Below are positions 54,633-63,056 of a DNA stretch of 64,000 nt, piece by piece. Location of the stretch: the NCBI GenBank assembly GCA_018968885.1, contig JAGWZK010000001.1:1-64000 (forward strand), written 5' to 3'. The stretch's first letter is position 1, and every line of letters begins with the position of its first letter. The notes beneath the pieces are model-generated. The model did no database searches, was not told where the DNA came from, and saw nothing but the letters and a program-made list of their open reading frames with translations. A program made the translations under genes and the position numbers. This DNA is from Planctomycetota bacterium. GTDB lineage: Bacteria > Planctomycetota > Phycisphaerae > Phycisphaerales > UBA1924.

Positions 54633-55334
54633 GTGGGTTCTCTCCGATGCTGAGTATCGCGGCAGGCCACGACACGTGTCACGACTCTATATATGGATAC
54701 CCCGAGCCGCTTCGAGCTGAAACCTCTCCCAATCTCCGGTTCGCGCCCGGGTTTGTGCGGGCACGCAGAGCGTGAAGCGGTTCAAGCATCACGCCCACCT
54801 CAAACAGGGGGTGGCGCGAGGCGACGAGCCGCTGGTACGCAGCGACTCGACACCAAGTTCAGTCATCGGCGGGATGTGGTTTGGTCTGAAACCGGATTTG
54901 GGGGGCAGAATCGGAGGGATCGGGCAATAAGGAGCAAAGGCGGAGACGCGCAGGTGTGTGCGACGACCCCGCCCCCGCGAGGAGAGCATGAAAGGGGTGC
55001 GGGTTTGGATCAGCAGCCGGATGCGAACTGGTTCACAAAGTCCAGATAGTCAAAGAAGTCGATGACACGACACGCATCGCACACGCATCTGCACAGCAAA
55101 GCAGGAACAACCCGCTTACTGCCTCTTCTCCTGCGAGGGAAACCCGCGCACGCGTGTAAGGCCCGGTGCAGGATGTTGCATTTCACTGCCTTTCCAGTGC
55201 CTTCTCTCTGATTGCAACTTTCGCGATCACTTTGCCTTCACATTGCATGACTGCGTGATGGTCGACACCGTTGAATACGTGCCGCGATGTGCTCTTCTGT
55301 GCTTCGCGACACAACATCATTCAGGAGACAATCA
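54633..55334. other. 700-base region with no intact gene
   Basis: The stretch between glmS and the next GC-dockerin gene holds the glmS promoter area (TATATATGGATACC at 54688-54701 is also found at 3377-3390), an Arg/Pro-rich plus-strand frame at 54693-55049 that resembles no protein, and a GC-dockerin remnant at 55010-55066 on the minus strand. I found no RNA gene motif here. Confidence 0.5.
55010..55066 (-). pseudogene. Orphan GC-dockerin C-terminal fragment
   Basis: Read on the minus strand, this segment encodes VIDFFDYLDFVNQF then ASGC and a TGA stop. It is the second loop and the terminal Gly-Cys of a GC-type dockerin, complete with stop codon. Upstream (higher coordinates) the frame continues only as Cys/Arg-rich nonsense without a start codon or a first loop. 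It is most likely what is left of a deleted GC-dockerin gene. A recombination scrap is the alternative, as DNA encoding this motif is repeated at least ten more times in the window. Confidence 0.7.
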
Positions 55335-56567
55335 ATGAAGTTCACACTCGCACACGCGTCCGCACTCGGTCTTATCGCCATCACATGCTGCGCGGCACAG
55401 TCATTGGCCGATGTCCGCATCTACGGCGGCCTCTCAAACTTCGATGTCTACAACGAAACCGGTGATGATTGCAACGAGTTTGAGTTCGAACTCGATGGCC
55501 CACACCCCGAAGACGTCTATCACACGTACCGCAACGGCAACTACGGCGCGCCCCGCATCGAATCCCTCCCCGGCAACACCGGCATCCGCGTCATCTACTC
55601 CCATCCTGCTCACGCCACGCACAATCACGCCGTCGAGCACTTCGGCGTCTCGCTCCGTGGCGGCTCACTCGTCACCGGCCAGCGCTTCCGCTGGATCACT
55701 GGCGGCATTCAGCCACCGGCCCCTCCGGCCAATCCTCCCCTTCCCACCCTCTCCCTCATCATCACCACCCTCAGCAACCGCGAAGTCGTCCTCGAAACCC
55801 TTACCAACACCGATGCCCACAATCGCCCCATCTGGGTCAAGCGCAAGGTCACTCGAGTCAATCGCGAAGTCTCTCTCGAAGAGCTCATGCCCAACGATCC
55901 ACTCATCCAGAACTCGACCGATCTCGATGCCGCGCCTGTCATGCTCGATGTCGGCGAACCTATCGAGCACGATGAACAAGTCGCCGACTTCTTCGAGCAA
56001 AGCAGCCAAGTCATCTCCTACGACGTCTGGCTGGATTCTCAGCGCCGCGTCGGCAACACCTGGATTCACGAGCCCGGTGTCCGCCTCGGCATGGTCATGA
56101 ACGCCTCACTCACGCAGCGCCCCGGCTGCGACACCGGCACCCCCACCATCACCACGCAACCCACCGACACCTGCGCCTGGCTCGGCGCCGCAACCGATCT
56201 CTACTGCGAAGCCGAATCAGACCCCAACTACGGCGAACTCTTCTATCAGTGGCGTCACGAAAGCGTCGACCTCCCCGGCGAAGACAACCCCCGCCTCGAA
56301 CTCGCCCTCATCACTCCCGATTCCGCCGGCGCCTACACCTGCGTGGTCCGCAACGACTGCGGCTTCGTGATGTCCTACTCCGCCCACCTCTCCGTCATCT
56401 CCTGCGATGCCGACTACAACAAAGACAACACCATCGACTTCTTCGACTATCTCGATTTCGTCGGCGATTTCGCCGACGGCAAGTTCTGGGCCGATTTCAA
56501 CGACGATGGCATCCTTGATTTCTTCGACTACCTCGACTTCGTTGCCGCTTTCGCCAACGGCTGCTGA
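55335..56567 (+). CDS. Secreted Ig-like protein with GC-type dockerin
   Basis: The 410-aa product has a signal peptide (ending SLADV) and an ATG preceded by AGGAG at seven bases. Residues about 25-260 are an unrecognised beta-rich domain. An Ig-like domain follows (about 265-350), seen in CAWLGAATDLYCEAESDP, YGELFYQWRHESVDLPGE and SAGAYTCVVRNDCG, with cysteines placed like those of Ig folds. The tail has DYNKDNTIDFFDYLDFV and DFNDDGILDFFDYLDFV and ends ANGC. It probably acts at the cell surface in binding or adhesion. A terminator follows. It ends 120 bases from the convergent repressor gene, at the border of the phage-derived cassette. Confidence 0.78.
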   Translation: MKFTLAHASALGLIAITCCAAQSLADVRIYGGLSNFDVYNETGDDCNEFEFELDGPHPEDVYHTYRNGNYGAPRIESLPGNTGIRVIYSHPAHATHNHAVEHFGVSLRGGSLVTGQRFRWITGGIQPPAPPANPPLPTLSLIITTLSNREVVLETLTNTDAHNRPIWVKRKVTRVNREVSLEELMPNDPLIQNSTDLDAAPVMLDVGEPIEHDEQVADFFEQSSQVISYDVWLDSQRRVGNTWIHEPGVRLGMVMNASLTQRPGCDTGTPTITTQPTDTCAWLGAATDLYCEAESDPNYGELFYQWRHESVDLPGEDNPRLELALITPDSAGAYTCVVRNDCGFVMSYSAHLSVISCDADYNKDNTIDFFDYLDFVGDFADGKFWADFNDDGILDFFDYLDFVAAFANGC

Positions 56568-56687: not shown

Positions 56688-57548
56688 TCACCCCCCCACC
56701 TTCCGAATCACACTCACCGCAACATACAACCCCCCGATTTCTTCTCGCTCCAATATCCGCGCCGGATACTTTGCGTTCAACGGCTGCAGTCGCAATCGCC
56801 CCTCTTCCTCAAAATACACCCGCTTGAATGTCGTCTCGGCGTCCCGCTCCAACCTCACAAAGCAGTCGTTCCCATCCTTCACATCCCGCATCGGGCTGAA
56901 CACCACCACATCCCCTTCGCGATACTCCGGCATCATCGAGTCCCCCACCACTCGCGCCGCAAACGCATCCGCATCCGTCACCTCCGGACACCGCACATAC
57001 TCATCCGCCACCCGCGCTGGATATCCCAGATCCGTAAACTCGCGCGGATACCCCGCCGCTACTTTGTTAATCAGCGGCACATCACGCGTCGAAACCATCT
57101 GCATGCGTTCTTCACCCGGCGACAGTTGCTCGATCAACTCGCGCAACTCCCCACTCTTCAGCGCAGCATCCAAACCCTTCATCTTCGATAGCCGCGCCAT
57201 CAACTCTTCCCGCGCCCGCGATGCACGCTCCGCCTGCTGAGACAATCTCCACACCGTGTGCTTCACACGCCCCGGAGTCCTCCCCCACGCCGCGGCATCC
57301 GCAAACGTCCCCGGCTGAACACCCAACGCACGCTCCAACGCACCCACGATCTCATCACTCGGTGGCGGCCTCTTCCCACTCTCAAGCTCCGACAGATATG
57401 ACCGCGCACACCCCACCACTTCGGCGACCTGGGCCAGCGTCATCCCCCGCCGCCGCCGCGCTTCACGCAACAGATCCCCAAGCGTCGAAGGAGCCGCACC
57501 CCCTTCGCCCGAAGATTCTGAATGAAAATGTGAACCTGACAACACCAT
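56688..57548 (-). CDS. XRE-type repressor with S24 (LexA/CI-like) peptidase domain
   Basis: A 286-aa phage-type repressor. The N-terminal HTH (about residues 20-80) is LGDLLREARRRRGMTLAQVA then VVGCARSYLSELESG. The C-terminal S24 domain has the catalytic Ser in VGDSMMPEYREGD and the Lys in ETTFKRVYF. An Ala-Gly bond in INKVAAGYPREF lies where self-cleavage occurs in CI and LexA, so RecA-stimulated inactivation is plausible. I used the ATG at 57548 (AAGG four bases upstream); ATGs at 57581 and 57608 are in frame. It is divergent from the cassette at 57759 and has its presumed operator at that cassette's promoter. This indicates control by DNA damage, which is inference. Confidence 0.88.
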   Translation of the reverse strand: MVLSGSHFHSESSGEGGAAPSTLGDLLREARRRRGMTLAQVAEVVGCARSYLSELESGKRPPPSDEIVGALERALGVQPGTFADAAAWGRTPGRVKHTVWRLSQQAERASRAREELMARLSKMKGLDAALKSGELRELIEQLSPGEERMQMVSTRDVPLINKVAAGYPREFTDLGYPARVADEYVRCPEVTDADAFAARVVGDSMMPEYREGDVVVFSPMRDVKDGNDCFVRLERDAETTFKRVYFEEEGRLRLQPLNAKYPARILEREEIGGLYVAVSVIRKVGG

Positions 57549-57686
57549 GTCACCTTCTTGTCGAATCAGTGTGCGGAACATGTTAGCAACCCCGTTTCTG
57601 ACTTGCAAGAGGCGTTTTTACATCATTAGCCCAGGTCTTATAACCCCTCTATGGTGCCGCGAGCGTCATAGAGACCAAACAAAATC

Positions 57687-57715
57687 TTGACGACCAGAGA
57701 ACTTTGTGGTATAAA
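57687..57715 (+). promoter_or_regulatory. Strong sigma-70-like promoter of the phage-derived cassette
   Basis: TTGACG (57687-57692) and TATAAA (57710-57715) are separated by exactly 17 bases. Transcription should start near 57722, about 37 bases before the ATG of the first cassette gene. Confidence 0.75.
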
Positions 57716-57723
57716 TCCGGTAT

Positions 57724-57741
57724 GTTCACCGCTCAGTGAAC
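57724..57741 (+). promoter_or_regulatory. Probable operator (perfect inverted repeat)
   Basis: GTTCAC and GTGAAC form a perfect 6-bp inverted repeat with a 6-base spacer, at the likely transcription start. It would be a natural site for the divergent S24 repressor dimer. One further GTGAAC half-site occurs at 57530-57535 near the repressor start. Confidence 0.65.
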
Positions 57742-57758
57742 AAGACCGGAGGTCGTCC

Positions 57759-58442
57759 ATGTATATCCCAGCACCTGCTCGTTCCCAAGCCCTCGCCACC
57801 CAACCCGTAACCCAACTCGCGCCCCAAGTCTCAACGCGCCCAAGCTACCGCCCTTCCCTCGACGCCAATCCACCCCGTGTCGATCGCCTCGATCCGACTC
57901 CGGCTTCACGCCCCTGCCTGGCGGCAGGGCTGACTCTGCGACGCACCATCCCCGAATCACAACGCACGCTCATGCTCAGCCGCGCTCGCTATCTCAATGA
58001 AGCCGACCGCACCTTTCTCACGCAACTCCTGGCCGATGGGCGCACCTGCCGCGAACTCGCTGCGATCGCGCAACTCAATATCCCAATCACCGGCCCCGCC
58101 TCACGCGCCAATGTCACCCTCCTCACCCGCCAAGCCCGCAACACCGCGCGGCTCATGCAACGCCGCTTCATTCGTCTCGCCAATCGCTTGCTGCATCCCA
58201 CCTTTGCCTACCTCATCACTCACTTGCGTGATATGCCCCCGACGCGGGCGCGCCTCTGCACCCTCCACTTCATGCACGGGCTCAGCATCCGCGACACCGC
58301 ACGCGCGATGAACCTTCCCTACTGCACCGTCCGCCACATCTGCCAGGTCACCCTTGCCAAGGCCGAAGCTCTTGCGGCAGCAACGCCAGCAACTCGCACA
58401 TCTATGCCAGAGTCGCCGACTCATCACCCCGGCACGAGTTAA
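57759..58442 (+). CDS. HTH protein with sigma region 4-like domain
   Basis: A 227-aa protein with a Pro-rich, probably disordered N-terminus (1-60). A helical region (about 75-160) contains AQLLADGRTCREL-like helices, and the C-terminal HTH (about 172-203) reads HGLSIRDTARAMNLPYCTVRHI. This resembles sigma-70 region 4, where T-V-R sits in the recognition helix. Region 2 is missing, so it is probably a DNA-binding regulator, not a full sigma factor. GGAGG six bases upstream fixes the ATG at 57759. It is the first gene under the repressed promoter, as expected for an early regulator that turns on later genes. Confidence 0.65.
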   Translation: MYIPAPARSQALATQPVTQLAPQVSTRPSYRPSLDANPPRVDRLDPTPASRPCLAAGLTLRRTIPESQRTLMLSRARYLNEADRTFLTQLLADGRTCRELAAIAQLNIPITGPASRANVTLLTRQARNTARLMQRRFIRLANRLLHPTFAYLITHLRDMPPTRARLCTLHFMHGLSIRDTARAMNLPYCTVRHICQVTLAKAEALAAATPATRTSMPESPTHHPGTS

Positions 58443-58524
58443 TCGCACGCACTGATCGCCCTGATGCGAACCACGCTTCACATCTCAGCACATGAGTCAG
58501 TGATCACACGCCATCTCCGTCTTT

Positions 58525-58562
58525 CTCTTTCAACTTTCTCCTTTCCACTTTCAACTGAAGGA
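58525..58562 (+). promoter_or_regulatory. TTTCAACTT-type leader before the ABC ATPase gene
   Basis: CTCTTTCAACTTTCTCC is followed by TTTCCACTTTCAACTG and then AAGGA, the ribosome site for the ATG at 58568. It is related to the leaders at 41069 and 60083. Confidence 0.5.
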
Positions 58563-58567
58563 ACCCC

Positions 58568-59287
58568 ATGTCCACCCTCTCCCCACTTTCGCCCCTCTCC
58601 CCTCACGCACTCCTCACCCGTGCCGTCTTCGGCATCTCGCACACTCTGGCTCGTCCACTCTCGCGTCATGCCACAGCGCTCGCGCACGCCAAGTCGCTCG
58701 TGGTGCGCGTCGATGCCGCACGTCCGCATCAGCCCCACTCAACCTTCATTCTCCTTTCTGGCCCCAGTGGCAGTGGCAAATCCACCCTGCTCCGCGCCCT
58801 GCGCACGCATCTGGCCGACCACGCCCCGCCACCGATTCTGAATCTGGCTCAACCGCCACTTGTCGAATCAACCCACATCCTCATCGATGACATTGCGCAG
58901 CACACACACTTTGCCTGGCATCGCATCGCGTTAGCCCTCACGCGCATCGGCCTGGCACAGCCGGATCTGTGGCTGTCGCGCATCTCACGCCTCAGCGATG
59001 GTGAACGCAGCCGCGCACTATTGGCCCAGGCCCTCCTCACGCTGCAAGCCACCTCACCACGCCCCACATTGCTCGTCGATGAGTTCCTTTCGCTGCTGGA
59101 TCGCCCCTGTGCCCTCGCCGCGCTCTCGGGCATCCGGCGCTTGCTTTCGGATCATCCCGGCGCACTCCTCATCGGGGCCACCGCGCATCATGATCTCGCC
59201 GCAACGCTCGATCCTTCCGCGTCCTTCGTCACGCATCTCGACCACTGCCGTGCCACTGTCCTCTTCCCATCCCCGTCCTCTCGCTGA
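58568..59287 (+). CDS. Soluble ABC-type ATPase of the phage-derived cassette
   Basis: A 239-aa protein with all ABC ATPase motifs: Walker A GPSGSGKS (about 65-72), signature LSDGERSR (142-149), Walker B TLLVDEF with the catalytic Glu, a D-loop-like LLDRP, and a switch His in GATAHHD. There are no membrane helices or permease partner, so it is not a transporter. Together with the next gene it matches, as two proteins, the fused ABC ATPase-acetyltransferase family (COG2401-like) known from some phages and archaea. It may act on DNA or a protein complex with the GNAT protein and terminase. AAGGA lies five bases before the ATG. Confidence 0.8.
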   Translation: MSTLSPLSPLSPHALLTRAVFGISHTLARPLSRHATALAHAKSLVVRVDAARPHQPHSTFILLSGPSGSGKSTLLRALRTHLADHAPPPILNLAQPPLVESTHILIDDIAQHTHFAWHRIALALTRIGLAQPDLWLSRISRLSDGERSRALLAQALLTLQATSPRPTLLVDEFLSLLDRPCALAALSGIRRLLSDHPGALLIGATAHHDLAATLDPSASFVTHLDHCRATVLFPSPSSR

Positions 59288-59302
59288 ACCGGAGTCCACA
59301 CG

Positions 59303-60040
59303 ATGCCCCTCACTCTCGATCCTCAACGGGTCGCCGACGCCGCACCGCCCGTATCACCCGCATCGCCCACACACTGCATCACCATCATTCGCGGCTGCCC
59401 ATCCGATCTTTCCACACTCTCACAACATCACTATCGCATCACGCCCCCCGTCGCCGTCGAACGCATTCTCTCCGCCATCGACACGCACACCGGCGATGTC
59501 GTCGGTGTCCTCGCCGCCAGCCGCCCACCCTTGAATGACTCATGGCGTGCCATCGCGTGGCCACACCTTCTCCCAACGCACCTCGCACCCCGTGAACGCG
59601 CCAAAGTCATCAATGCCAACATCCGCATCATTTCACGCGTGATCGTCTGTCCCGCGCGCCGCTCTCTTTCCATCGCCAAAGACCTGGTGTCTTGCTACCT
59701 GGCCGATCCACTCACACCCTGCACCGAAGCATTGGCCGCGATGGGTGATCTTGTCCCCTTCTTTCAGCGCGCTGGCATGCGCGCCATACCCCTTTCCACC
59801 CCACGCCGCGATCTCACCCTCTTACGCGCCCTCGCATCCAGCGGCATCACTCCTCTCGATCTCGCCGGTCTGGATCACCTAGTCCACCTCTCTCACCCGA
59901 TCCCCGACGCACTCGCCGTCCCCCTACGACGCTGGGCTTCCGCCCATCGCAGCACACGCTCACTCACCGATCTTGACACCATCGCCCTCAAAGCGTCCAA
60001 CGCACTCCTCTCCCCTCGCTGTGCATACGTCTCGCCCTAG
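59303..60040 (+). CDS. GNAT-like acyltransferase partner of the ABC ATPase
   Basis: A 245-aa protein with a GNAT-type core at about residues 25-165. The acyl-CoA loop region is SRVIVCPARRSLSIAKDLV, and the following EALAAMGDLVPFFQRAGM matches the pattern (M-x(4)-PFF-x-AGM) of the acetyltransferase half of COG2401-like proteins. The pyrophosphate loop lacks a clean RxxGxG/A, so activity is not assured. The C-terminal 80 residues are helical and unrecognised. It starts 15 bases after the ATPase gene, with CGGAG upstream. Mu Mom, a DNA-modifying enzyme, is also GNAT-like, so a role in modifying DNA or a packaging protein is possible, but this is inference. Confidence 0.6.
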   Translation: MPLTLDPQRVADAAPPVSPASPTHCITIIRGCPSDLSTLSQHHYRITPPVAVERILSAIDTHTGDVVGVLAASRPPLNDSWRAIAWPHLLPTHLAPRERAKVINANIRIISRVIVCPARRSLSIAKDLVSCYLADPLTPCTEALAAMGDLVPFFQRAGMRAIPLSTPRRDLTLLRALASSGITPLDLAGLDHLVHLSHPIPDALAVPLRRWASAHRSTRSLTDLDTIALKASNALLSPRCAYVSP

Positions 60041-60082
60041 CACGCGCTCCCAATCTCGCATAGCCCCGGGTCTCCGCTCTCC

Positions 60083-60111
60083 ACTTTCAACTTTGAACTT
60101 TCAACTCAAGG
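60083..60111 (+). promoter_or_regulatory. TTTCAACTT-type leader before the terminase gene
   Basis: ACTTTCAACTTTGAAC continues as TTTCAACTCAAGGA. The last part is the ribosome site for the ATG at 60118. Over its TTTCAACTTTGAACTTTCAA core it is identical to the leader at 41069. Confidence 0.6.
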
Positions 60112-60117
60112 ACTCCC

Positions 60118-61755
60118 ATGACCACCTCACTCACCTCCCACGCCATCCCCACCACACCCGATGCGCTGCACGCCACCGTGCACAACATGCTGCAACTCTC
60201 ACTCCCCCGCCGCGCTGTCTTGCCCGGTCACGCATCTGCGTTCGCGTTTCTTGCGCACGCCTTTCTCGCACCTGCCGGTCATTCGCCGCAGACCACTTCA
60301 CCAGATTCCGTGCTCTGGGCCGCGCGAGGCGCAGGCAAGACCTTCCTCGGCGCACTCCTGGTCTTGCTGGATCTGCTCTTTCGCCCCGGCATCAGCGTCC
60401 GCATTCTCAGTGGCTCCCTGGCCCAGTCGCTGCGCATGTATCAACACCTCAAGCGCTTCCTCCACATCGCCCGCCTCGAAGACCACGTCGATGGCAAGCT
60501 CCGCGCTCACGGATTCTCCCTTTCCAACGGCTCACACGTCGAAGTCCTCGCTCAATCTGAAACCAGCATCCGCGGCACGCGCGTCCAGCGCATCGTCTGC
60601 GACGAGGTAGACCTCTTCACCCCCTCACTCTTCGATGCCGCCCAACTCGTCACCCGCTCTGCCACCTGCGCTGGCCACCACATCCACGGCTCGGTCATCT
60701 GCCTCAGCACCCTGCATCGCCCACATGGCGTCATGACTCGCCTCATCGCCGATTGTGCCGCCAGCACACGCACACTCTTCAAATGGTCCGTGATCGATTC
60801 TCTGGAACGCTGCCCAACCTCGCGCGCCTGCACCCCCGACACGCCAAACCCGGATGCCAACGCCATTCCTCTCCCCGTTCTTGAATCGCCGCCCCCGCAA
60901 GCATGTCCCTTGCACAACGACTGCCAGGGTCGCGCCAAACACATCAACACCGCAGAGCCGGGTCATTACTTCATCGCCGATGCCATCTCGCTCAAAGCCC
61001 GCGTCAGTATCGACACTTGGAAATCAGAGATGCTCTGCCAGGGCATCTCCCGTGCCGATGCCGTCTACGACCGCTTTCGCGTCGAAACCCACGTCATTCA
61101 CTCGTGTCCGCTCGAGTCGCGCTTTCGTCGCGGTCACCGCCCCGATCAAGACAGTACTTCTGGCACCGACGAACACCTCTCCCTGGTCTGCGGCATGGAC
61201 TTTGGCGTGCGCAACCCCTCCGCCATCCTCTGGGGCATCCTCGATACCTCAATCGATCGCCTGCCAAAGTTGTACATCATCGACGAACTGCACACCGTTG
61301 GCGAACTCACCGAGGTCAACGCCCGACGCATCATGCAGGGACGCAGCGCCAATACGGACACCGCGCCCGAGGGAATGCGCTGGAAAGTCCCGGCCTCTGT
61401 CGCGATCGATCCGGCGGGGCAGTCGCGCACTTCCAATAGTGCTTTCACCGACGCCGCACACCTGCGCACTGCCGGCCTCACCACCATTTCGCCGGACAAC
61501 ACTGTGGATCTTGGTATCGGTGCAGTCAGGGCGTTGATCTCTCCGGCCTCCGGACCGCCCCGACTGCTGATCCACTCGCGCTGCACGCGCCTAATCAATG
61601 ACCTCCTCACGTATCGCTACAACCCCGACCGCCCCCACAGTGATACCCCCGTCAAAGACGGCCCCGATCACTCCTGCGATGCCCTCCGCTATATGGTGAT
61701 GGCACTCGGACGGCGTCCTTCCAAGAACGAAAGAACCGAGTGTGTTCCTTTCTAG
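60118..61755 (+). CDS. Phage-type terminase large subunit
   Basis: A 545-aa DNA-packaging motor protein. The ATPase half has Walker A AARGAGKT (about residues 68-75), Walker B IVCDEVDLF (about 159-167) and a coupling motif CLSTLHRPHG (about 195). A segment from about 232 to 270 carries four cysteines in two CxxxxxC pairs (CPTSRAC and CPLHNDC), suggesting a metal site. The RNase H-like nuclease half has CGMDFGVRNPSAI (Asp 361), LYIIDELHTVGEL, and the final acidic residue in DHSCDALRYMVMAL. Both active sites look intact. No small terminase, portal, capsid or protease gene follows. AAGGA lies seven bases upstream. It is the last gene of the repressor-controlled cassette. Confidence 0.85.
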   Translation: MTTSLTSHAIPTTPDALHATVHNMLQLSLPRRAVLPGHASAFAFLAHAFLAPAGHSPQTTSPDSVLWAARGAGKTFLGALLVLLDLLFRPGISVRILSGSLAQSLRMYQHLKRFLHIARLEDHVDGKLRAHGFSLSNGSHVEVLAQSETSIRGTRVQRIVCDEVDLFTPSLFDAAQLVTRSATCAGHHIHGSVICLSTLHRPHGVMTRLIADCAASTRTLFKWSVIDSLERCPTSRACTPDTPNPDANAIPLPVLESPPPQACPLHNDCQGRAKHINTAEPGHYFIADAISLKARVSIDTWKSEMLCQGISRADAVYDRFRVETHVIHSCPLESRFRRGHRPDQDSTSGTDEHLSLVCGMDFGVRNPSAILWGILDTSIDRLPKLYIIDELHTVGELTEVNARRIMQGRSANTDTAPEGMRWKVPASVAIDPAGQSRTSNSAFTDAAHLRTAGLTTISPDNTVDLGIGAVRALISPASGPPRLLIHSRCTRLINDLLTYRYNPDRPHSDTPVKDGPDHSCDALRYMVMALGRRPSKNERTECVPF

Positions 61756-61778: not shown

Positions 61779-63056
61779 ATGTCCACCGGCCTGCAAGATA
61801 CTCTGCGCTTGTCCAAGCAGTTGTTGCTGTCAGGCAGCGTGGGGTTTCCCGATGCTGCCATGCGGTTCTTGCTGGCGTTGAACACCGCCGAAGTAGAAGC
61901 GTGGATGCACCTGGCACTGGTGGCGCGGCTGATGAAGGAGGATCACACCGCCGCGCGGTTCGCTCGGTTTGTCCTGAATCGCGACTCCAAGCACGCTCAG
62001 GCCAAGCAGATGTTGCAAGCGACCAAAGACGCCGGCCCTTCGCTGGATGCTCGCTCCACCCCACAGGGGCGATACCTGCTTATCCGCGCGTGGAACGCTG
62101 GCTTCTGGTCAGATGTCGATCATGTGCTGGGATGCCTGCTGCTGGCATCGCTCACCAATCGCACACCTGTCATCCACTGGGGCCCGGATTCTCGCTACGG
62201 GGGAACGCCAGAACGCAGCGCGTGGGACAACTTCTTCGAGCCCGTGTCGACGCTCACCGTGCACGATCTGGCGGCACAGAAACTCGCATGCTTCCCGCCC
62301 AAGTGGAATCACGAAAACATCTCCGGCCCATCGATCAATCGCTTCAATGGCAAACACTCACGCACCAGTTATCTCTCGCTGCTGAATCGCCCCGAGCCGG
62401 TGGTGGTGGCGGATTTCTTCGTGCCGCTGGCCGGTGTGTTTTTCTATCTGCGGCCCGACCATCCAGACTTTGATTCGCATCCACAGACCATCCTGCGACG
62501 CACGCTGATCGAACAGGTTCGACCCTTGCCACAGCATCGTGCCGCCGCCGCAGAATTCACCGGCCGCCACTTTGGCAACGGTCCGGTGCTGGCAGTGCAC
62601 GTTCGCGGCACGGACAAAACCGATGAAGACCCCACCGCCAACGAATGGAACCAGCGCTTCACCATGATCGCGGATCAATCACTCAAGAACGGATTGGTGA
62701 AGTCGCTGTTTCTCATGACCGATACCGCCGCTGCGCAAGACAAATGGAGGAAGCTCTTTGGTGATGCGCTGATCTGTTCGCCGGCACAGGTATCGCAAGG
62801 TACAACGGCGCTGCATTTCACGCCCGGCCTGGATGGTGCCGCACTCGGACGCGAGATTCTGGTGGATTCGCTCATTGCAACTCACGCCGACCGATTTGTC
62901 GGCATGGCGTCAAGTAATGTGGCTCGAATGATCTCACTGTTGAAGCCTTGGGCTCCTGACACAATCGGCCTTCTGGGTGAAGATGTGCTGAACATGCCCA
63001 ATCCCATGCTAAGCGATCCGCGGATCGCCTTTGCCGGTCGCAATGAGCCGGAATGA
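61779..63056 (+). CDS. NodZ-like fucosyltransferase-family protein with TPR-like N-terminus
   Basis: A 425-aa protein. Residues 1-90 form TPR-like helices (LSKQLLLSGSVGFPDAAMRF, HTAARFARFVLNRDS). The rest resembles the GDP-fucose transferase superfamily (NodZ/FUT8-like): RYLLIRAWNAGFWSDVDHVLG for the acceptor half, VLAVHVRGTDKT for the GDP-sugar phosphate loop, LFLMTDTAAAQDKW, and DSLIATHADRFVGMASSNVARM. The fucosyl donor and the acceptor are inferred from the family. Start at 61779 (ATG) is chosen over upstream shadow sequence. It begins 23 bases after the terminase stop and may be read from the same promoter, though it seems an ordinary chromosomal gene. G-rich spacing and codon use differ from the C-ending cassette genes. 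Confidence 0.72.
   Translation: MSTGLQDTLRLSKQLLLSGSVGFPDAAMRFLLALNTAEVEAWMHLALVARLMKEDHTAARFARFVLNRDSKHAQAKQMLQATKDAGPSLDARSTPQGRYLLIRAWNAGFWSDVDHVLGCLLLASLTNRTPVIHWGPDSRYGGTPERSAWDNFFEPVSTLTVHDLAAQKLACFPPKWNHENISGPSINRFNGKHSRTSYLSLLNRPEPVVVADFFVPLAGVFFYLRPDHPDFDSHPQTILRRTLIEQVRPLPQHRAAAAEFTGRHFGNGPVLAVHVRGTDKTDEDPTANEWNQRFTMIADQSLKNGLVKSLFLMTDTAAAQDKWRKLFGDALICSPAQVSQGTTALHFTPGLDGAALGREILVDSLIATHADRFVGMASSNVARMISLLKPWAPDTIGLLGEDVLNMPNPMLSDPRIAFAGRNEPE

Follow-up and report, generated by a model that had tools for sequence, protein, structure and literature searches.

A phage-derived terminase cassette without recognised shell genes is conserved in the Phycisphaerae

A five-gene cassette of a planctomycete genome is best explained as an ancient, vertically inherited and domesticated phage packaging module of the Phycisphaerae. 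It has a repressor and a sigma-4-like activator, is devoid of portal, capsid and tail genes and would act as a DNA motor and nuclease needing no capsid of its own (probability about 0.6). The computational analysis supports the origin, the conservation, the selection, a predicted operator and the absence of HK97-type portal and capsid genes in most carriers. The conservation of the gene order across a bacterial class is far beyond chance. A narrower version is tentative, at a little under even odds: a class-wide, repressor-controlled host machine in which the terminase motor cuts chromosomal DNA and pumps it, with no virion or similar particle involved. The literature searched contained no description of the five-gene cassette. 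To our knowledge, domesticated phage parts (gene transfer agents, tailocins, PBSX-like elements) all keep shell or tail genes. Phycisphaerae retained the packaging end, the accessory genes and the switch without a recognised shell.

Cassette composition and genomic setting

The window, that is the whole analysed stretch of 64,000 nucleotides, contains the cassette at 56688-61755. Five ORFs were found there, intact and correctly placed, in the order divergent S24 repressor, sigma-4-like HTH protein, ABC ATPase, GNAT-like protein and terminase large subunit (TerL). The features are:

56688..57608, minus strand: S24/LexA-type repressor (Cro/CI HTH and autopeptidase), divergent; domain search and ortholog alignment
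57687..57692, plus strand: predicted -35 box TTGACG, 17-bp spacer; sequence reading, unlisted by the consensus scan
57710..57715, plus strand: predicted -10 box TATAAA; sequence reading
57724..57741, no strand: putative palindromic operator GTTCAC-CGCTCA-GTGAAC, covering the predicted transcription start
57759..58442, plus strand: two-HTH regulator, sigma-70 region-4-like; likely start ATG at 57759 after GGAGG
58568..59287, plus strand: soluble ABC ATPase, relative of phage phrog_11143/phrog_293; family search
59303..60040, plus strand: GNAT-fold protein, phrog_886 relative; phrog match and AlphaFold model
60118..61755, plus strand: TerL; domain and phrog matches, single copy in the genome

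Domain and family matches confirmed the five gene types that an initial annotation had named within about 5 kb. In the window, the cassette is flanked by genes for GlmS, a dockerin/Ig protein and a Met-zincin. A family scan of the flanking proteins agreed with the annotation that no portal, capsid, tail or integrase gene adjoins the cassette. Catalytic motifs had been described as intact; this holds for the ATPase and TerL, whereas the CoA-binding loop of the GNAT-like protein deviates.

TerL matched Terminase_6N (3.1e-6) and phrog_2 (1e-16). Its ATPase residues K74, D162 and E163 and its nuclease residues D361, D431, D517 and D521 are essentially invariant across about 120 orthologs, as are the four cysteines of an insertion (C232, C238, C263, C269). 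With ATPase Walker A and B motifs and the acidic residues of an RNase H-type nuclease, the protein is predicted to be a functional terminase. The ABC ATPase matched ABC_tran (1.2e-7) and has Walker A, signature and Walker B motifs. About 80 orthologs conserve the Walker A lysine, the signature serine and glycine and the Walker B aspartate and glutamate. It is fused to the GNAT-like protein in several relatives. The latter matched phrog_886 (1.7e-7) and had no match in a Pfam search. Its AlphaFold model is confident (pLDDT 88.8), and the 19 PDB matches of the model at E <= 0.001, some of them acetyltransferases, support the GNAT fold. The CoA loop (R/Q-x-x-G-x-G/A) has its glycines in most orthologs and serine at both positions in this genome. 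The HTH protein has a weak match to sigma-70 region 4; a distant ortholog on L272 matched Sigma70_r4_2 (1.8e-7) and Phage_antitermQ (6e-5).

Distribution, phylogeny and selection

TerL is present in 165 of 301 genomes of the order, all but six of them in the same family. Strong matches (E < 1e-60) were obtained in 69 of 120 genomes of the class, and TerL is nearly absent from the rest of the phylum. A search for the gene order in other Phycisphaerae had been proposed, with confinement to this genome as the contrary outcome; the cassette recurs across order and class. Carriers hold one copy per genome, with variable host flanks. Among the genomes of the order, TerL and the GNAT-like protein occur together in 153, TerL alone in 12, the GNAT-like protein alone in three and neither in 133. 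Half of the order and several families of the class lack the cassette, which is therefore dispensable. The linkage of repressor and TerL is loose: four TerL-positive genomes had no repressor match, and the repressor is found without TerL in two genomes and several of f104.

The TerL tree, a quick IQ-TREE run, follows the taxonomy almost perfectly: across 16 groups it needs 16 label changes, against a minimum of 15 and a mean of 37 for shuffled labels. The family of the studied genome forms one clade (support 99). Synteny and dN/dS had also been named as checks. The gene order is conserved, and TerL dN/dS was 0.09-0.30 in the closest congeneric pairs, which together with the near-invariant catalytic residues bears out the view that selection, not decay, acts on the cassette. 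These data suggest that Phycisphaerae inherited the cassette vertically from the common ancestor of the class. Constraint may be relaxed in the lineage studied here, as its TerL has the longest end branch within the family and the CoA-loop glycines are altered.

Phage origin and missing shell genes

Deeper lineages additionally retain a ParB-like and a TerS-like gene, which identifies the source as the ParB-ABC-GNAT-TerS-TerL end of a tailed-phage genome that was truncated immediately ahead of the portal. L272, for instance, has TerS (phrog_2538) and ParB (phrog_723). The family of the studied genome has neither, and its TerL is intact. The same module precedes TerL and portal in Pseudomonas phage hairong (Nickievirus) and Rhizobium phage RHph_N1_15, where phrog_293/11143, phrog_886, phrog_2 and a ParB-like gene form one block up to TerL. 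The GNAT-like protein aligned with its phage counterpart (hhalign, E 2e-11). In these phages the portal and structural genes come next, whereas the Phycisphaerae block stops at TerL. It also differs from the left ends of both phages in being chromosomal, repressor-controlled and vertically inherited, and ParB follows GNAT instead of standing first. We know of no explanation for the role of the ParB-ABC-GNAT module in phage packaging; the cassette may help to provide one.

The portal of three phages with related TerL is of the PF04860/phrog_12 type. Whole-genome searches for shell genes used HK97-type portal and capsid models in sets of 81 and 22 genomes. The HK97 portal (PF04860) exceeded the cut-off in only five of 81 family genomes, as did the HK97 capsid (PF05065), and neither did so in the studied genome. 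The phrog_12 portal was found in only three of 22 carriers; closed genomes were among those searched. Caulobacter, the positive control, was detected by both the PF04860 and the PF05065 model. Neither the window nor the relatives examined have a recognisable portal gene next to TerL. The genes directly downstream of TerL in some relatives were considered as hidden structural genes and encode, as judged by eye, ordinary-looking proteins.

Repressor, promoter and operator

The repressor matched S24 and HTH_31 (3e-20 and 7.6e-16). Its ORF as listed begins with TTG, and the actual start codon may be a more internal one. The cleavage site A185-G186 and the catalytic S224 and K262 are identical in 66 of 66 orthologs. 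With HTH, Ala-Gly cleavage site and Ser/Lys dyad, the protein has all the hallmarks expected of an autoproteolytic LexA/CI-type repressor. It is not the only LexA of the host: a separate canonical LexA is encoded elsewhere in the genome, so the cassette repressor is a dedicated one.

The palindrome GTTC-N10-GAAC was found in 30 of 59 repressor-HTH intergenic regions (0.2 expected), and CTTGCA, a -35-like word resembling TTGACG, in 36 of 59 orthologous regions (6.8 expected). The exact operator has a single match in this genome; with up to one mismatch, 0.12 matches are expected by chance within the window. A wider regulon was rejected, as near matches genome-wide (134) did not exceed the control (131). 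In the f8 and f9 lineages, where the repressor is unlinked, a shared operator was looked for in trans and not found.

SOS-controlled lambdoid prophages have the CI repressor, the late regulator Q and a terminase. The cassette resembles them by an S24 repressor over a divergent promoter and a terminase downstream, and the weak Phage_antitermQ/sigma-4 similarity of the HTH protein recalls Q. Unlike lambdoid prophages, it lacks genes for replication, virion structure, lysis and integration.

Proposed function and alternative explanations

Of the options offered by the initial annotation, a domesticated system fits best: the cassette is a phage-derived, selected, repressor-controlled and conserved independent unit. 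Judging from the sequence, the repressor would bind the palindrome over the promoter start and keep the operon off. Given that neither the cleavage site nor the Ser/Lys pair varies, RecA-stimulated self-cleavage would remove it after DNA damage, whereupon the HTH protein would boost transcription of the operon. TerL, an ATP-driven translocase of double-stranded DNA with a nuclease domain, may then cut and move cellular DNA, aided by the ABC ATPase and the GNAT-like protein and filling no capsid of its own. ParB and TerS likely choose the site on phage DNA; their loss beside an intact TerL fits a device acting on DNA in general. The most likely role is the processing of damaged chromosomes or the preparation of DNA fragments. 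TerL motors normally require a portal for translocation, and we know of no precedent for a capsid-free role. A motor working in this way would constitute a new cellular DNA translocase and nuclease system. That a packaging motor and its repressor were kept without a shell suggests that the cell has put a phage-derived motor to new use.

The main rival, which we consider unlikely, is a gene transfer agent whose shell has escaped recognition. The cassette would be the control and packaging locus of a multi-locus agent whose shell genes lie elsewhere and were missed by the HK97 models. Damage would lift the repressor, the sigma-like activator would start packaging and random host DNA would leave in particles. 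Phycisphaerae would then have an undescribed gene transfer agent. The logic resembles that of the Caulobacter crescentus agent, where domesticated phage genes are linked to DNA damage, the LexA-like RogA acts upstream of, and represses, the activators and the particles aid survival after damage (PMC9632790). Loss of TerS and ParB would suit non-specific packaging, and vertical inheritance and purifying selection are as expected of such an agent. However, the Caulobacter agent has portal and capsid genes. In Phycisphaerae, the cognate portal is missing from 76 of 81 family genomes and 19 of 22 carriers, closed genomes included, and the HK97 capsid from 76 of 81, with models that do detect Caulobacter. 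No second exact operator points to a remote shell locus. RogA also lacks the cleavage residues that the Phycisphaerae repressor retains. The proposed packaging or gene transfer-like module is weakened, as HK97-type shell genes are absent from the genome and sporadic in the family.

An antiviral device exploiting phages, a form of the suggested defence role, is less probable still. After infection or damage, host TerL would dock on the portals of the infecting phage and cut phage DNA or load host DNA into the heads, spoiling the burst. TerL retains its ATPase and nuclease residues without a portal of its own, some prophages of the family have HK97 portals, and a switch of the damage type would react when prophages are induced. 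However, PADLOC gave generic matches for the HTH protein and the ATPase and none for TerL and the GNAT-like protein. No defence genes were noticed among the annotated flanking genes, a minority of the neighbourhoods. Defence systems usually spread horizontally; the TerL tree is vertical.

It is very improbable that the cassette is a prophage remnant in decay, or a present-day satellite common by chance. All parts are phage-derived, TerL has changed faster in this lineage, its GNAT loop is altered and four TerLs are split or bear stops. Against this stand orthologs in single copy throughout the class, purifying selection, catalytic residues that hardly vary and a conserved operator. A private fragment or prophage remnant was rejected on distribution, tree and selection; structural genes beside the terminase were not recognised in the loci examined, neither a horizontal phylogeny nor decay was seen, and no locus read was a full prophage with the cassette. 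The suggested satellite of the PICI, P4 or PLE type was rejected, as no integrase was found among the flanking proteins scanned and the cassette is present in one copy, with variable host flanks and a taxonomy-following tree. The cassette is not currently viral either, as GNAT and repressor were not found in the viral contigs searched. The sole contig classed as viral with GNAT and TerL is the edge of a host contig, with a foreign element inside TerL.

Gene content and phage source

The coordinates of the five cassette ORFs were confirmed in the window, and the gene identities of the initial annotation stand: an S24/HTH repressor, a sigma-4-like HTH protein, a soluble ABC ATPase, a GNAT-fold protein and the terminase large subunit (TerL). 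The GNAT-like protein matches phrog_886 (1.7e-7) and no Pfam family. AlphaFold predicts its structure with confidence (pLDDT 88.8). Acetyltransferases are among the best PDB neighbours, with tRNA(Met) cytidine acetyltransferase at the top (2zpa, 3.5e-5), and the viral structural neighbours include NAT-domain phage proteins and one phage Mom protein. The likeness of the HTH protein model to sigma region 4 is local only, and no PDB structure passes an E-value of 0.001. The genome has a single TerL of the cassette type, separated from GNAT by 77 bases.

The phages hairong and RHph_N1_15 have the same gene block, ending in a portal. The cassette is thus a tailed-phage packaging end that breaks off ahead of the portal. 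Profile comparison related the cassette GNAT to the phage GNAT with an E-value of 2e-11.

About 20 kb around TerL were read in many genomes. One order is common: a divergent repressor, then HTH, ABC, GNAT and TerL, with ABC and GNAT fused into one gene in some genomes. Deeper lineages have two extra genes between GNAT and TerL, first a ParB-like (PF02195, 4.5e-8; phrog_723, 2.8e-20) and then a small-subunit-like TerS gene (phrog_2538, 4e-4). Within the window's own family, the ParB-like protein is reduced to a surviving tail, in some genomes only. Families f8 and f9, which belong to other orders, have the repressor ortholog at a great distance from TerL; one genome (G582) has TerL at 101668 and the repressor at 4152013. 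Two loci carry the housekeeping gene rpiB (ribose/galactose isomerase) embedded between TerS and TerL (L272:10918-11346; L274:10824-11261), and the same-size ORF at this position in L273 is probably rpiB too.

The flanks in the window are ordinary: GlmS (named from its sequence) and a dockerin/Ig protein lie upstream, and downstream are an ORF with weak fucosyltransferase similarity and a Met-zincin protein. The ORF after TerL (61779-63056) has weak alpha-1,6-fucosyltransferase similarity (FUT8_N_cat, 4.7e-5, below the cut-off). Adjoining the repressor, 55287-56567 encodes a secreted-looking protein with an Ig domain and a GC-type dockerin-like end; a homolog also flanks the cassette of locus L031.

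Distribution and inheritance

Across the order, TerL homologs occur in 165/301 genomes, about one per genome, with the same family for all but six. An independent GNAT search found 156/301. Both genes are present in 153 genomes, TerL only in 12, GNAT only in 3 and neither in 133; because related genomes have a common ancestry, the counts do not represent independent events. The co-occurrence of repressor and TerL has exceptions. Eight genomes of family f104 (G673, G681, G689, G701, G716, G720, G738, G748) have diverged repressor relatives, mostly of about 400 aa, without cassette TerL. In a class sample, 81/120 genomes matched TerL at 1e-15, and 69 remained as strong matches after 12 weak C-terminal ones were dropped. 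Phylum matches outside the class were weak and mostly C-terminal, except in G658 (2e-67) and G378 (1e-46); in G378, an HK97-type portal gene comes after TerL, the arrangement seen in phages. GTDB genomes with named TerL matches are nearly all Phycisphaerales/Phycisphaerae or unclassified Planctomycetota MAGs. The Phycisphaerae cassette is also present in loci L158 and L167, whose GenBank titles, Cyanobacteria and Leptolyngbya, appear to be mistaken.

In a quick TerL tree of 53 sequences, the 16 groups require 16 changes of family label, where 15 is the minimum and shuffled labels need 37 on average. The window's own family forms a single clade (support 99). TerL dN/dS was 0.09-0.30 in the closest congeneric pairs; values of distant pairs were higher and near saturation, and the ends of some ORFs were over-extended. 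The Walker, nuclease and four-Cys residues of TerL show next to no variation across about 120 sequences, and the same holds for the ABC ATPase residues across about 80. In the repressor, 66/66 sequences keep the cleavage site and the Ser/Lys pair. The case is strong that this is an ancient packaging module, kept by the host under the control of a repressor, and its domestication is nearly certain. Within its family, the window's TerL sits on the longest end branch (1.15; tree median 0.44), and the window's GNAT has Ser at two CoA-loop positions where most orthologs have Gly; constraint may therefore be relaxed in this lineage.

Control region

The repressor-HTH intergenic region of the window contains:

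Predicted promoter, TTGACG-17-TATAAA
57724-57741, palindrome GTTCACCGCTCAGTGAAC, over the expected start

Of 59 orthologous intergenic regions, 30 contain GTTC-N10-GAAC (0.2 expected), 15 contain TACCATACA (0.1 expected) and 36 contain CTTGCA (6.8 expected). TACCATACA or a close variant often lies 52-54 bp before the palindrome. At L032, L159, L164, L165, L184, L201 and L205, TACCATACA or TACCGTACA is found at this offset, about five helical turns, adjoining the -35 box. This may be the site of the HTH activator. The exact palindrome occurs once in the window's genome and near matches are at control level (134 vs 131), so no wider regulon was seen there. This genome has a separate canonical LexA besides the cassette repressor.

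Shell and function

Phage relatives of the cassette TerL have portals of the PF04860/phrog_12 type. Within the own family, PF04860 portal and HK97 capsid each exceeded the cut-off in 5/81 genomes, and both were absent from the window's genome; the searches detect Caulobacter. The phrog_12 portal was found in 3/22 carriers, closed genomes included. The cassette very likely lacks an HK97-type shell.

The full reading has a probability of about 0.6: damage-type derepression would be followed by sigma-like activation, and TerL would act as a motor/nuclease on cellular DNA with no capsid of its own. The main rival, a gene transfer agent (GTA) with an unrecognised shell, is unlikely. A LexA-like repressor that works through activators likewise controls the Caulobacter GTA, which helps cells to survive DNA damage (PMC9632790); unlike the cassette, this GTA includes portal and capsid genes, and the cleavage residues are missing from its repressor. 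Phage interference, for which PADLOC gave only generic HTH and ATPase hits, is more doubtful still.

None of the viral contigs searched was found to carry the cassette GNAT or repressor. L066 (IMG/VR contig 3300034175_000195) was rejected as a viral carrier: it is a host contig edge with TerL interrupted by a foreign element. Its positions 573-2351 encode the GNAT of the cassette and a TerL that breaks off near residue 290, and primase/helicase-like mobile-element genes come next; this TerL has apparently been disrupted by the insertion of an element.
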